Assembly: GCA_025558095.1 (NCBI GenBank)
Contig: JAIVFI010000017.1
Location: 248,001 to 312,000, forward strand
Direction: 5' to 3'
Length of the DNA: 64,000 nt
DNA from: Hyaloraphidium curvatum
Taxonomy: Eukaryota > Monoblepharomycota > Hyaloraphidiomycetes > Hyaloraphidiales > Hyaloraphidiaceae
The position numbers and the translations under genes are program-made. Numbering within the stretch: position 1 is the stretch's first letter; every line of letters begins with the position of its first letter. Below are positions 5,429 to 59,729 of the stretch, piece by piece. The notes under the pieces are model-generated. The model had not been told where the DNA came from. It searched no databases and saw only the letters and a program-made list of their open reading frames with translations.

Positions 5429-6452
5429 TCCGGGGGGGCTCGACGATTTGGATGTGAAGGAGCGATTTGCCAGCGATGCAATAGACCATGCTTTGGAATG
5501 CTGCGCGCGTCAATGCCCTAGGCGATCGGGAGGAGTACCGACGCAACGGGCCCGCTACGTCCCTTGGGAGGAGCTGGACCGTTCCCCTCTGATGCCCTTC
5601 CCGAATCCACGGCTTGCGCGGCCGGCGACGCCGAAGGATGTTTGTCCCTGTGCGAAAAAGGTAATCGCTGGCCCGATCAGATCCGTCGATGGGGTCGAAG
5701 GCGGGGACCGGCGGGGAGTGAGTGGACCCGAAGAACGGGTCCAGGCCGACCCACCGTCCCTGTGCGGTCCTCCCGGACCGGCCGGCGGCGGGGCCCGCTC
5801 CCGGCGGGAAACGAACGGCGTGCATGGAACGCGGAGACCAGCAGCCCGTATGGTAAGAGGGACGGGCCGGCGATGGGTCGGAAGGGCAGCGGGCGGCGGG
5901 AATGGCGGGAGCGGGCTCGGCACGCGGTGGAAGGGCTTCCATTGCCGGAATCCCGGGCAGAACGTCCCGGCAAGGGCCTCGCGGGGCAACGGACGCGTTT
6001 GAGGATCGGCGGATGCGCAGTGGCAGGCAACGAGGGCGTCGGACACGTATCTCGCTCACAGGGACACACATCCGGCGCGGTCTTGGAACCCTTCCTGATG
6101 GCCGCCGGCGCCGGGAGAAGCCGGTCGAGGTGGATGGAGCGCCGCGGGCGCCGGCGGAAGCGACGGCGGGCCGGAATGGCGGTGGGTCGGGGCCGCGAGG
6201 CGGCGGTGGCTGGGGTGGGGAAGGCGTGGGCGGCCGACCTGCCCCGGCGAATCGGGGTCGGCCGGCCCCGGGGCTATCGGCACCGAGCCTGCAGCGTCCT
6301 TGAAGGGGCACGGAGGCCGCCCCGCGGGATCTCTGCCTGGTTCGCAAGTCCCGATCGTCCCCAGCGGGCGTGTGATTGTCCCAGCCCCTCCCCAGCGTCC
6401 CCGTTTTGCCGAAGCCCATCCGCCACCGACGCGTCCCGGGCGCCGACCAGCG
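5429..6452. other. Intergenic region upstream of the glycosyltransferase gene
   Basis: About 1 kb of GC-rich sequence with overlapping ORFs on both strands, whose translations are Arg/Gly/Pro-rich and show no domain. It probably contains the 3' flank of the fusion gene and the promoter and leader of the gene at 6453. I see no repeat, RNA gene or clear small coding gene. Confidence 0.4.
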
Positions 6453-8045
6453 ATGCGGCTCCCGGCGGGACTGCGGTTGCCGCCGTGGACGCGGCGGCCG
6501 CCCGCGTGGGCGGCGCGGCCCGTCATCCGGTGGGCGCTCGTGGCGGCGGCCGGCGCGCTCTTCTTCCTCGCGCACTCGGCGGGGCTGCTGCCGCCGCCGC
6601 CCGCGCTGCTCTCAGCCGGCGGCGCGCCGCCTCTGCTGCACGGCGGCGCGCGCATCGCGTCGGCCGTCGGCCCGCCCGCGCTCGCCGGCGCGCGCTGGAC
6701 AGACCTTTCCCGCACGCTCGCGCCGCCCGGCCGCGGCGAGCAGTTCGAGGCGTTCGACCTCTTTGCCGGCGTGTGCATCGACGTGCCCGACTCGCCCGAG
6801 CCGAAGAACCCCGTGGCCGCGTGGTTCGTCGGCGACGTGCCAAACAGGAGGCGCGCCGAGCGCGCCCTCGCGCGCGCCCTGGGCGGCCCGCGCGAGCCGC
6901 TGCCCGTGCTCCGCGGCGCGGACCCCAGGGCGGCCGGCCGTGCCGCAACGCGCTACCCCGGCCGGACCTACCTCCCAAACTGCCTGTGGTCGACCGTGCC
7001 CGGCGCGGGCCACCTGATGTTCGGCGCCAGCATGGCCATGGAGCTCGGGGAGCGCCCGCCAAAGGGCATGCACGCCCTGGACCGCGTGTCGATGGTCTGG
7101 TGCCCGCTGTGGCGGCGCTGGGAGGGCAAGATCTACTGGGACTTTGCCCGCAACGGCTGGGAGTTTGGCCGCACCGTGCTCGACCTGGTCTTTGCCCGGT
7201 GGCCCGCCGCGGGGCTGATCCCGGACCTGCGCGCCGAGCGCTTCCCCATCATGCGCGGCGTCTCGTGCTTCGACGAGCTCCTCGTCTCCCGGCGCGAGGG
7301 CGTCCTCCTCGCTCGCGCCGACTCGCGGCCCTTCCTGGAACGCCTCGCCGCCGCCGTCCCGGGCCACAACACCACCCTCCTCCCCGACCCCGGCAAGGCC
7401 GCCCGCCGCCTCGACGAGCGCTGCCGCTCGCGGCGCCTCCGCGCGGGCATCTTCCAGCGGCACCAGTTCCACCGCCACGTCAAGCTCAAGGAGCGGCGCT
7501 TCGTCAACCTCGACGACATCATCGGGCTGCTCGCCGACTTCACCTCCTCCCCCGTGGACGTGTTCGACGTGAACCACACCGTCCCCCTCGGGAGCCAGAT
7601 CGACCGCTTCGACGCCTACGACGTCCTCCTGACCCCCGTCGGCAGCCAGATGTCGGGCATGGTGCTGGTCGGCCCGCGCGCGCAGCGCGCGGTGGTCGAG
7701 ATCGGCGCGTGCGTGAGGGACACGTTCTGGAAGGAGAACGGGGACCGCCTGGGGTACCGCGCCTACGTCCTGTCGACGGGCCACGTGCCGGACGTGCCGC
7801 AGCTGGCCGACGCCATGGTCGGCTGCAGGTGGGCCGCGGTGGGGGACAACCCGGGCCCGGCGCTGTTCTGCCCGGCGCGGTGCGAGGTGACGGACGGGGA
7901 CCTGATGGTCAACACGACGCTGCTGCGGGCGCACCTGGAGTGGACGTTCGGGAGGATGTGCGACGAGGGGTGGAGGCCGCCGAGGGCGGCGCCGGACTTT
8001 TCGCGGGTGGGGTGCGCGGCGAACAGGGGGATGTGCGGGTGCTAG
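6453..8045 (+). CDS. Type II membrane glycosyltransferase, GT61/DUF563-like
   Basis: A 530-aa single-exon protein starting at the ATG at 6453. Residues 1-22 are short and basic (cytosolic tail). Residues about 23-45 (VIRWALVAAAGALFFLAHSAG) form a signal anchor, followed by a lumenal stem and catalytic region. Near residues 385-420, DVLLTPVGSQMSGMVLVGP followed by VVEIG matches the 'hydrophobic-G-x-M/L ... vEI' pattern typical of GT61 (DUF563) glycosyltransferases. NHT and NTT give potential N-glycosylation sites. Such enzymes add xylose or GlcNAc to glycans or polysaccharides in the Golgi. The exact donor and acceptor cannot be read from the sequence. The C-terminus is Cys-rich (GCAANRGMCGC). 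No intron is seen. Confidence 0.65.
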   Translation: MRLPAGLRLPPWTRRPPAWAARPVIRWALVAAAGALFFLAHSAGLLPPPPALLSAGGAPPLLHGGARIASAVGPPALAGARWTDLSRTLAPPGRGEQFEAFDLFAGVCIDVPDSPEPKNPVAAWFVGDVPNRRRAERALARALGGPREPLPVLRGADPRAAGRAATRYPGRTYLPNCLWSTVPGAGHLMFGASMAMELGERPPKGMHALDRVSMVWCPLWRRWEGKIYWDFARNGWEFGRTVLDLVFARWPAAGLIPDLRAERFPIMRGVSCFDELLVSRREGVLLARADSRPFLERLAAAVPGHNTTLLPDPGKAARRLDERCRSRRLRAGIFQRHQFHRHVKLKERRFVNLDDIIGLLADFTSSPVDVFDVNHTVPLGSQIDRFDAYDVLLTPVGSQMSGMVLVGPRAQRAVVEIGACVRDTFWKENGDRLGYRAYVLSTGHVPDVPQLADAMVGCRWAAVGDNPGPALFCPARCEVTDGDLMVNTTLLRAHLEWTFGRMCDEGWRPPRAAPDFSRVGCAANRGMCGC

Positions 8046-8423: not shown

Positions 8424-9959
8424 CTACGGCCTCGACGGGCACACGTAATCCATCGTCAGGAACACCCCCAGCCCCCGCAGGATGGACCACAGCGCCACGA
8501 CGAGCGTCAGGATCGTCACCAGCACCGTCCGCACGATGCCGTACGTCACGGGGAACCCGAGCACCTTGGAGCGGTACCGGTCCGTGTCGGTGTAGCTCCG
8601 GAGCACCTCGGCGTCGGCGTCCATCGCGGCCAGCAGCGCGGGGTCCGGTCCCGGGTGGGGGGCGGAGGTGACGAGGCAGCGCCGCAGCTCCCCGAGCTCC
8701 TCCAGGGCGTCGAGGTACAGCTCACGGATGTCGGAGATCTGGGCGTTGGCGGCAGAGACGTTGAGCAGGTCGACGAGGAAGTTGGAAGTCCCAACGTAGA
8801 GCAGGTAGATCGGATACATCGCGGGAAGGCACGAACAGAACACCACGTTGAGCAGGCCCGATACGACCGCCGCCGAGACGCCGATCAGCATCGGAGAGCT
8901 GGCATTGTACTGCGCGGCGGCCTGCCGCCATAGGCACGCGAGGAGCCGGTGCAGCGCCATGTATCCGTCCCGTCCCGGTAGGAACCCTTCCCCGCCTCCA
9001 GATGCGCCTCCAGATGCACATGCAATCCTGTACCGTTCCATGGTGCTTCCTAGAGCGAGCCGCATCGCGCGCCGGTTGACGCGGCGGGAGAGCTGGAGCA
9101 GCGGGATGTTGGTGCTGAAGCGCACGCAGACGATGGGCACGAAGAAAATGAGGTATCCGACAATGAAGAAGACGGTGACGATCGCGGACCACGCGTTGCT
9201 CCACGTGCGGGGCAACGACACCGCGACGATCCAAATCTCCGAGAGAAAAAGCAGTGCCGTCAGCCCGCCCTTCGTGAGCAGTTCCGCGACGCGGGCGAGA
9301 CCTGCTTGCCGGGGCAGCTTCCCGGCGCACCGCGGGCCCGCACAGGAGCAGAGGGGATCCTTGTCCTCGTGTACGAGCAGGACGGGGTCCGTCGGGCCCG
9401 GGAGGGTTCCAACGAGGAGCTGGCTCCAGCGGGCTAGCCTCGCGGCGCCATGGGAGGAAAAATCCCGCGGCGGCGGGGCGGTGACCACCGTTCCGGCCCC
9501 AGCAGCGCGTCGCACGACGCTGAAGGAGCCCTGGTAAGCCGCGAAGAGGGAGGGCACGACGCCCGCCACGGTGCAAAAGAAGACCCAGCCGACCGTGCCA
9601 ACCGCGAGCTGCACGGTCCCGTACGCGTCCCGACCCAGGATCCACGGGACGACGGGCAACGCTGCGGCCGAAAGCCACATCCAGACGTTGCGTAGGATGA
9701 AACTGCGCGCCAACGGCTCGAGGGCGACCTGCAGCCGCACTGTCGCGGCCAGCACGCCCGAGCGGCGCGACAGCGCGCCGACGAAGGCGTCGAAGCCCAG
9801 CGGCGATTCGGCGCGCGCCTCGGCGGCGGGATCGGGCGGCGGCGGGGCGCCGGGCACCCCGGGGGACCACGACACGGGCGCGGGCAGTACCACGAGCCAT
9901 TCCGCGCCGTCGAGCCGAAACGCGGCGGGCGCAGCGTCGATCTTCACGTCGTCCGCCAT
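8424..9959 (-). CDS. Multi-pass membrane protein, orphan family, copy 1
   Basis: An uninterrupted 511-aa reading frame from the ATG at 9959. After a soluble N-terminus of about 85 residues there are several hydrophobic helices (near LSAAALPVVPWIL, GTVGWVFFCTVAGVVPSLFAAY, TALLFLSEIWIVAV, VTVFFIVGYLIFFVPIVCV and a pair before the C-terminus). A cytosolic or lumenal loop carries a Cys cluster (DPLCSCAGPRCAGK). The last helix region YGIVRTVLVTILTLVVALWS is nearly shared with the divergent gene at 10106-11772, as is the end (LGVFLTMDYVCP against LGVFFTMESFCP), so the two are paralogues. The layout loosely recalls 7-8-TM chemoreceptor-like or channel proteins, but I recognise no family. Confidence 0.7.
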   Translation of the reverse strand: MADDVKIDAAPAAFRLDGAEWLVVLPAPVSWSPGVPGAPPPPDPAAEARAESPLGFDAFVGALSRRSGVLAATVRLQVALEPLARSFILRNVWMWLSAAALPVVPWILGRDAYGTVQLAVGTVGWVFFCTVAGVVPSLFAAYQGSFSVVRRAAGAGTVVTAPPPRDFSSHGAARLARWSQLLVGTLPGPTDPVLLVHEDKDPLCSCAGPRCAGKLPRQAGLARVAELLTKGGLTALLFLSEIWIVAVSLPRTWSNAWSAIVTVFFIVGYLIFFVPIVCVRFSTNIPLLQLSRRVNRRAMRLALGSTMERYRIACASGGASGGGEGFLPGRDGYMALHRLLACLWRQAAAQYNASSPMLIGVSAAVVSGLLNVVFCSCLPAMYPIYLLYVGTSNFLVDLLNVSAANAQISDIRELYLDALEELGELRRCLVTSAPHPGPDPALLAAMDADAEVLRSYTDTDRYRSKVLGFPVTYGIVRTVLVTILTLVVALWSILRGLGVFLTMDYVCPSRP

Positions 9960-10105
9960 TGCGGCCAGGTTCTGCGGCGGCGGTGTGGGCGGGCGGGATT
10001 ACGGGATCCGGAGGCAGCCACGCGCCGAGTGCGATCTTCCGCGAGGAAACTTCACTGGCAAGGCGCCTTTGCCGCGATAGGACGAGCTTCTGTCGATCCT
10101 TTACA
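9960..10105. promoter_or_regulatory. Shared divergent promoter region of the membrane paralogues
   Basis: Only 146 bp separate the two start codons of the head-to-head paralogues, so both transcripts must start inside or very near this interval. No TATA element or repeated operator-like motif is evident. Confidence 0.5.
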
Positions 10106-11772
10106 ATGAGCGGAACCGAGAAAACCCACGACGCCACCGCCGGAACCGATGCCGTCGCGCCCGGCGTCCCAGCTTCCTTTGCCTCACAGGCCGACTCGCG
10201 CGTCCCGGACGCCGACTTCACCCCCGAAGAATGGGTGTGCCTATTTCCCGCCGCGGCGCCGCCCTTCCGGCCTCTGCTGCCCGACGAGGAATCCGGGGAG
10301 GCGGGGCGCGATCCCTCCGAAGAGTTCCGAAAAGCGAACCCAGTGACGCTCGAAACCATGCTGGAAGAGTTTGACAACCCAGTGCTTCGCTTCTTTGCTT
10401 GTCTCGGCGCGTCTCGAAGTGCGAGCTTTTTGGGCTGGAGGATGGCTTGCCAGACGGGACTCGGGTTCTGCATGATGCTGGTCTTCCAGGGGCTGGCCTG
10501 GTCTTGGAACGATGGCCTCTTCGGGACGAAGCAGATGATAGCAGGTGTGACTTCCCTGACAGCGTTGGCTTTTGCCGCCGTTGGCACGTTCGTGCTCGTC
10601 GCGGTGAACATGCCCAAAGTGCCGAAGGTACTGGATTTTGCCGCGCCCGCGGTGCTCTGCAGATGGCTGCAGGTGGGCAAAAAGACAGAGCAAGAAGGAC
10701 AGAAGTCTGGCTCGACGCTTGAGGGAACCCAAAGCCTCCTCGCGCACGAAGAGGGCGACCGATTCTGTCCGTGCTCCAGCTGCATCGGCAACGTGCAGCA
10801 GCTTGCGGGTTTCATGACCTTCTTGGACATCACATTGAATTTCGTGCTCAACTTTCTTTTCACCTGGACCGCAGGATGGACCGCGTGGGTCACGTACGGC
10901 TCCAAGCTGTGGTCCACGTGGTGGGGTTGCGTTCTCGCGGCAATCGATGGTCAGGCAACCGCACGTCCTTCGCAGGGAGCATTTACTCTGACATATTTGC
11001 CTTCCTTCCGTTTGCAGTTTGTGCTGCTGTGGCCTACATAATGAACTCTGCCTGTCGCTTCGTTGGCATCGCCAACATTGCATACGCGAGGCTGGAAGCA
11101 AGACTCCACCACCGCGCCGTCGTCCTCTCCATGAGATCTATGCTGGAAACTGTGCTCAGCGGCCGTTCGGCTAGCCAGGCGCCGTGGCTGTACGTTCGAC
11201 AGCACCGCAACTTTGCAGCGTGGTGCAAGATCCGCGAGATTCAGGACCAGACCCTGCTCAGTAACTCCGTGTTTGTCATCCTGTTCCCCTTGGCCATCGT
11301 CGCTATCATAGTCAATGTTGTGAGTGAAAACTGGACGGGTGAGCGTGAAACGGGTGCTGACTCTGGTGCCATCCTGCAGGCCGTCGGGTCCTGCATCCCG
11401 GCGTGGCTTCTCTTTCTCACTTGTACCATCATGCTCTACATGCTGGTCAACGCCGTCAACCTCACCTCGCGCAACAACCTCATCTCCGTGGTCGCATCGG
11501 CGTACCACGACGGCCGCCGCGACCTCCGCACCGCGTGCCTCAAACTCGGCCCGACCCCGCTCGCTGCCTCGCTGGAGCAGCACGACCGGGTCATCGGTTC
11601 GTTCCTCGAGGTGTCGCGATACAGCGCCAAGATCCTGGGGTTCACCGTCTCGTACGGGGGCGTGCGGACGATGCTTGTGACGCTGGTCACCCTCATGGTG
11701 GCCTTGTGGAGCGTGTTCCGGTCGCTGGGGGTGTTCTTCACCATGGAGAGCTTCTGCCCGATTGTATCGTAG
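10106..11772 (+). CDS. Multi-pass membrane protein, orphan family, copy 2
   Basis: Two exons (10106-10925, 10976-11772) around a 50-nt intron give 538 aa. The acidic N-terminus (about residues 1-100) is longer than in copy 1. Hydrophobic segments follow near GLGFCMMLVFQGLAW, LTALAFAAVGTFVLVAV, FLDITLNFVLNFLFTWTAG, IFAFLPFAVCAAVAYI, VFVILFPLAIVAIIVNVV and LLFLTCTIMLYMLV, with a final one at MLVTLVTLMVALWSVFRSLG. The loop Cys cluster (DRFCPCSSCIGN) aligns with that of copy 1, as do the C-terminal helix and the ending FTMESFCP. The donor of the proposed intron (GTTGCG) is weak but restores the frame and the paralogue match. Function is unknown; a sensor, channel or transporter at a membrane are all possible. 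Confidence 0.68.

Positions 11773-46886: not shown

Positions 46887-59729
<12,843 letters not shown>

Follow-up and report, generated by a model that had tools for sequence, protein, structure and literature searches.

A head-to-head gene pair of Hyaloraphidium curvatum belongs to a very large family of predicted seven-transmembrane proteins that may resemble insect-type receptor channels

Two genes of one very large membrane protein family lie head to head in the genome of Hyaloraphidium curvatum. The window, by which we mean the whole stretch of DNA analysed (64,000 nucleotides), is C17:248001-312000 of a genome of 31.9 Mb in 55 contigs. Features of the pair are given below in window positions, and residue numbers throughout are those of gene 1 (M1 = 1).

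8424-9959, minus strand: gene 1, an intronless single open reading frame of 511 aa with seven predicted transmembrane (TM) segments
8439-8441, minus strand: gene 1 C507, the C-terminal Cys, found in 120 of the 120 members with a residue there
8475-8549, minus strand: predicted gene 1 TM7, residues ~471-495, the most conserved TM
8760-8819, minus strand: predicted gene 1 TM6, residues 381-400, from family-averaged hydropathy
8829-8831, minus strand: gene 1 C377, in the predicted TM5-TM6 outside loop (GSC[IL]PA), found in 100% of 128 members
8838-8897, minus strand: predicted gene 1 TM5, residues 355-374, from family-averaged hydropathy
9123-9194, minus strand: predicted gene 1 TM4, residues 256-279, from family-averaged hydropathy
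9216-9275, minus strand: predicted gene 1 TM3, residues 229-248, from family-averaged hydropathy
9327-9371, minus strand: gene 1 cluster H197-x3-D201-x2-C204-x-C206-x4-C211, in the predicted first inside loop
9537-9605, minus strand: predicted gene 1 TM2, residues 119-141, from family-averaged hydropathy
9636-9692, minus strand: predicted gene 1 TM1, residues 90-108, from family-averaged hydropathy
9960-10105, no strand: intergenic space of 146 bp between gene 1 and gene 2, common to both
10106-11772, plus strand: gene 2 as a whole, with one short intron and a predicted product of 532 aa
10106-10949, plus strand: gene 2 exon 1, from the alignment and the family HMM
10745-10783, plus strand: gene 2 cluster H...CPCSSC, with the shorter spacing CxCx2C, equivalent to the gene 1 cluster
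10950-11017, plus strand: putative gene 2 intron of 68 nt (GTCAGG...CTGAC...TTTGCAG), placed by alignment and splice signals
11018-11772, plus strand: gene 2 exon 2 with the stop codon, from the alignment and the family HMM

Strong chitin synthase matches in the genome indicate a fungus; Radial_spoke_3, a marker of motile cilia, had no match in the genome, and its control was likewise silent. The window also carries a TOM1/HUWE1-type ligase, LAA2 and a PRP21-like splicing factor. Several open reading frames at 47578-59240 (minus strand), with HECT, UBM, UBA and DUF908 domains, are pieces of one intron-bearing gene for the TOM1/HUWE1-type E3 ligase. Beside gene 1, an open reading frame at 6300-8045 (plus strand) has a weak, sub-threshold match to glycosyltransferase 61 (PF04577, E 2e-4), and a tRNA-Cys called by ARAGORN within it (7793-7885, plus strand) is probably a false positive.

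The original prediction gave the two products as 511 and 538 aa. The first length stands, while 532 aa fits gene 2 better. The 538-aa model implies a 50-nt intron at 10926-10975, over which the 68-nt intron is preferred because its 3' end is better (CTGAC, a pyrimidine tract and GCAG), because gene 2 then aligns through TM4 with no insertion, and because gene-2-like paralogues have a frame break at the same residue, ~280. The head-to-head arrangement with 146 bp between the ATGs was confirmed from the positions of the reading frames, and the space at 9960-10105 is a possible bidirectional promoter. The common C-terminus (YGxVRTxLVTxxTLxVALWS ... LGVFxTMxxxCP) and the loop Cys cluster (CSCAGPRC in gene 1, CPCSSC in gene 2), both picked out in the same prediction, are real. 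Family HMM scores are far beyond chance (2.6e-176 for gene 1; 2e-64 and 2e-58 for the gene 2 frames), and across 128 members the cluster residues show 98-100% conservation.

Six genome searches with protein queries (gene 1, gene 2 and four divergent members), together with motif-picked loci, located the family at 243 distinct places on 46 of the 55 contigs, a count that includes six places on small contigs (C46-C55), of which some repeat C17 or C30 stretches, and in which double counting is possible for a few long-intron genes. A copy count had been proposed earlier as a check, and this scale was missed at that first reading. With gene 1 as the query, matches were mostly single long frames at 30-55% identity (84 of 732 candidates scored). 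Loci chosen solely by the motif D-xx-C-x-C-x4-C were true family members in 20 of 20 cases, and the motif DxxCxCx4C occurs 402 times in the genome, some of these sites lying outside the family, versus 51 times for a reversed-pattern control. An apparent repeated sequence with the same Cys spacing, D-x-x-C-T-C-[SA]-A-P-R-C, inflates the motif count; its sites include C1:1506104, C1:1521777 and C9:807937. Rough capture-recapture reasoning puts the family total at about 240-350 copies. Matches at G000:C47:83157-106333 have scores and identities equal to those on C17:637688-661387, and the match at G000:C48:16192-17734 equals that at C30:60643-62185 in both respects; these C47 and C48 copies are probably alternative haplotypes or assembly duplicates.

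Family members are mostly single open reading frames, with lengths of 483, 509 and 535 aa at the 5, 50 and 95% points. Seven close pairs have dN/dS values of 0.20-0.36, so the majority of copies are probably functional genes; stop codons are present in some. A mobile-element origin of the family was set aside, given that few flanking sequences are common to the copies and that these are spread over 46 contigs. One member (L006) has on both flanks an inverted repeat of ~60-240 bp, which occurs in several copies that are ~89-96% identical.

The arrangement had been taken as that expected after an inverted duplication, but the comparison with other members does not support an origin of one gene from the other in this way. 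Gene 1 and gene 2 share 25% identity versus a family median of 28%, and gene 1 is more similar to 114 of 127 members than to gene 2. At 68-77% identity, the paralogue nearest to gene 2 is G000:C17:245435-247071 (minus strand), ~11 kb away and ending ~0.9 kb to the left of the window start; a TAG lies inside its second-exon match. Gene 1 has its closest relative, at 54% identity, on contig C28 (84 of 732 candidates scored). Adjacent family genes show no orientation bias, with 10 head-to-head, 10 tandem and 9 tail-to-tail arrangements. The two genes are paralogues, but they did not arise by a recent inverted duplication, because their identity lies below the family median and each gene has closer relatives elsewhere.

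Hydropathy averaged over 65 members has seven hydrophobic peaks, the last of them at residues 471-493, and the predicted topology is supported by calculation. The predicted inside loops (TM2-3, TM4-5 and TM6-7) are ~87, 75 and 70 aa long and basic, the predicted outside loops are 10, 7 and 6 aa long, and K+R per residue is higher on the inside flanks in 113 of 128 members. From the long basic loops and the inside-favouring basic residues, the N-terminus is predicted to be inside, and the C-terminus would probably be outside if TM7 crosses the membrane. The position of the C-terminus is the softest part of the topology, because the coevolution test is weak (p 0.004-0.065 with random pairs, 0.03-0.28 with circular shift) and the top couplings fit better with TM7 left inside.

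Conservation is distributed unevenly along the protein, with 0.77-1.04 bits in TM1-6 versus 2.08 bits in TM7. TM1-6 rank with the least conserved parts and have no conserved charged or polar residues in the alignment of 128 members, and TM7, the Cys loop and the inside loops rank with the most conserved. Roughly two dozen residues are strictly conserved across the family; conserved residues include H197, D201, C204, C206, C211, C377, R477 and T485 (both in TM7) and C507. In the Cys loop, H197 (98%), C204 (100%), C206 (98%) and C211 (100%) form a plausible metal site of one His and three Cys (H+3C), and C377 and C507 are a plausible disulfide pair. The TM7 polar face T478/T482/T485/S492 is conserved, and TM7 is alone among the TMs in having a conservation moment that reaches significance (p=0.013, not corrected for the seven tests), which points in the same direction as this face; on this pattern, TM7 is proposed as a pore-lining helix. 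Near the N-terminus, a hydrophobic EWLxxhP motif (gene 1 residues 20-28) is also conserved in the family alignment.

Coevolution was analysed with 128 effective sequences over 479 columns, an amount that is informative for the top couplings only. The strong couplings join the pre-TM5 helix with the post-TM6 and pre-TM7 helices (337-415, 333-449, 424-456), as expected of an anchor domain, and two further couplings, 24-294 and 25-331, connect the WLxxhP motif with the loop between TM4 and TM5. Couplings of EWLxxhP with the start of TM2 (21-117, 25-121) are odd for the predicted topology, and the motif could be a re-entrant element. AF2 models of gene 1 alone (pLDDT 44) and of three rows, gene 1 with the two gene 2 exons (pLDDT 49, pTM 0.40), are too poor for fold assignment. 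Locally fair blocks of the three-row model (pLDDT 66-79) include a very long TM4 (254-314) and TM6 (380-431) and a helix at 439-459 ahead of TM7, so that in this low-confidence model TM4 and TM6 would extend far into the cytoplasm. These helix lengths and the couplings would fit an Orco-like fold with a split TM7 and a cytoplasmic anchor. Foldseek and VIA-align searches with the pLDDT-49 model listed generic helical bundles only and no receptor.

No meaningful Pfam match was found for any of 24 members, 7tm_6, 7tm_7 and DUF3537 gave none at E<=10 for the same members, and the family profile matched no PDB sequence. The earlier statement that the proteins match no known transporter, channel or receptor therefore held in the Pfam and PDB searches. 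Profile comparison (hhalign) with Gr43a, BmGr9 and Orco gave E ~0.1 and was out of register; structures of Gr43a (8JM9) and Orco (6C70), both 7TMICs, are known, and 7tm_6 and 7tm_7 are the Pfam families of 7TMICs. A PF08395 search of the genome returned 0 candidates, with the control likewise silent, and a gene 1 search of viral contigs and prokaryotic genomes found no relative. The literature searched has no description of such a family and, for fungi, nothing of comparable size and kind. With no meaningful Pfam or PDB match, a large size and purifying selection, the view that this is an undescribed polytopic family is supported.

In its general plan the family resembles the insect OR/GR/GRL (7TMIC) proteins. 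Its members are ~500 aa long (483-535 aa, the upper edge of the ~350-500 criterion), with seven TM segments by family-averaged hydropathy, an N-terminus predicted inside (in 113 of 128 members by positive-inside statistics), inside loops longer than outside loops, divergent TM1-6 with a conserved TM7, a large multigene repertoire and, in the low-confidence model, possibly the long TM4 and TM6 helices and a pre-TM7 helix. Unlike 7TMICs, it keeps the TM7 motif (T/S)Yhhhhh(Q/K/E)(F/L/M) at the first of four positions only (T485 in 97%; then V/L, S/T/G and V/I/L), its sequence or profile homology to them is undetectable by Pfam or hhalign, and it has an additional H+3C cluster and an extended C-terminus that ends with an invariant Cys. 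We know of no counterpart of the Cys cluster in insect receptors. Plant DUF3537 and PHTF proteins are in general low copy. They follow the same superfamily plan, PHTF also having a long first inside loop (PMC9998090), but the family has no Pfam match of its own.

Benton et al. listed the criteria that were used to find GRLs in unicellular eukaryotes (PMC7746228). The family agrees with criteria ii-v of that list (length, TM number, N-terminus and loops) and departs from both sequence criteria, profile homology and the TM7 motif. The motif is diagnostic but not definitive according to the same authors, and chytrid GRLs keep just one of its four positions (PMC7746228). Some accepted members of the 7TMIC superfamily have little or no primary similarity, and a later structural screen left out chytrids (PMC9998090). 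Compared by description, the Spizellomyces GRLs (SpunGRL1 and SpalGRL1; Benton et al., 2020) are likewise fungal and seven-TM with one TM7 motif position, but they occur as one gene per genome versus at least ~240 here.

The reading that we tentatively favour is that both genes belong to one very large, lineage-specific fungal seven-TM family of 7TMIC-like chemosensory channels, whose members may work like the insect OR/GR or GRL proteins. We write that they work like 7TMICs rather than that they are 7TMICs because both sequence criteria fail and the models are too poor for a fold; homology to 7TMICs is unproven. A new seven-TM receptor or sensor class unrelated to 7TMICs, which would signal via the conserved cytoplasmic loops and the H+3C site with no channel, would agree with the empty Pfam, PDB and hhalign comparisons, with the high conservation, relative to most other regions, of the inside loops and the inside Cys cluster, and with the coupling of WLxxhP to the TM4-5 loop. 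We consider such a class rather unlikely, as the 7TMIC plan already explains the N-in layout, the conserved TM7 and the long TM4 and TM6 helices.

Polytopic proteins in many copies, with purifying selection in close pairs, might also be transporters or scramblase-like proteins whose family expanded to handle nutrients or toxins. Transporters normally conserve a substrate or ion site within their TMs, and TM1-6, the most variable segments here, have no conserved charged or polar residues, which makes this explanation improbable. Less probable still is a multi-TM family that serves self/non-self recognition or is selfish (wtf-like): the high copy number, the divergence and the stop codons in some copies would suit it, but the low dN/dS (0.20-0.36), the two dozen strictly conserved residues, the spread over 46 contigs and the scarcity of common flanks argue against it. 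It is very improbable that the profile searches overlooked an ordinary, already described GPCR or PAQR (IZH) family of fungi, since neither appeared in the Pfam results for 24 members at E<=10. Seven TM segments and a possible receptor-like expansion are shared with fungal GPCRs (STE2/STE3, Pth11 and others), but the predicted N-in and loop topology is opposite to theirs, the side of the C-terminus being less certain. PAQRs are N-in, but the His/Asp metal-site residues are not conserved in TM1-7.

Chemosensation is the typical role of large, divergent 7TM families. Under the favoured 7TMIC-like reading, we infer channel function, ligand sensing, a bound metal and a disulfide. The proposed mechanism draws on the predicted anatomy and on known 7TMIC structures. 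The ligand pocket, divergent among members, would be built from TM1-6, and a common cytoplasmic anchor would consist of the pre-TM7 helix and the parts of TM4, TM5 and TM6 that extend into the cell. The conserved polar TM7 would line the pore of a cation channel, either homomeric or heteromeric. The disulfide would link the loop between TM5 and TM6 with the C-terminus, a metal in the H+3C site may stabilise the first inside loop, and the genome repertoire would amount to ~240-350 such sensors. In evolutionary terms this would be an independent fungal expansion of a diverged insect-type receptor-channel branch, with ~240-350 chemosensory channels that each carry a cytoplasmic metal site, a scenario that we regard as rather unlikely.

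Large divergent membrane receptor repertoires are a signature of chemical sensing in animals. In Fungi, to our knowledge, only the single-copy chytrid GRLs are known from the insect-type receptor superfamily. If the proteins are not 7TMIC-like, they remain a gene family of very large size in this genome, without a Pfam or PDB match. If the resemblance to insect receptors is real, the fungus would have a candidate chemosensor repertoire as large as an animal's. Should they be 7TMIC-like channels, a fungus would have built a big sensory repertoire on the insect-receptor plan, and the family would offer hundreds of natural variants for reading the evolution of ligand pockets and of the pore.
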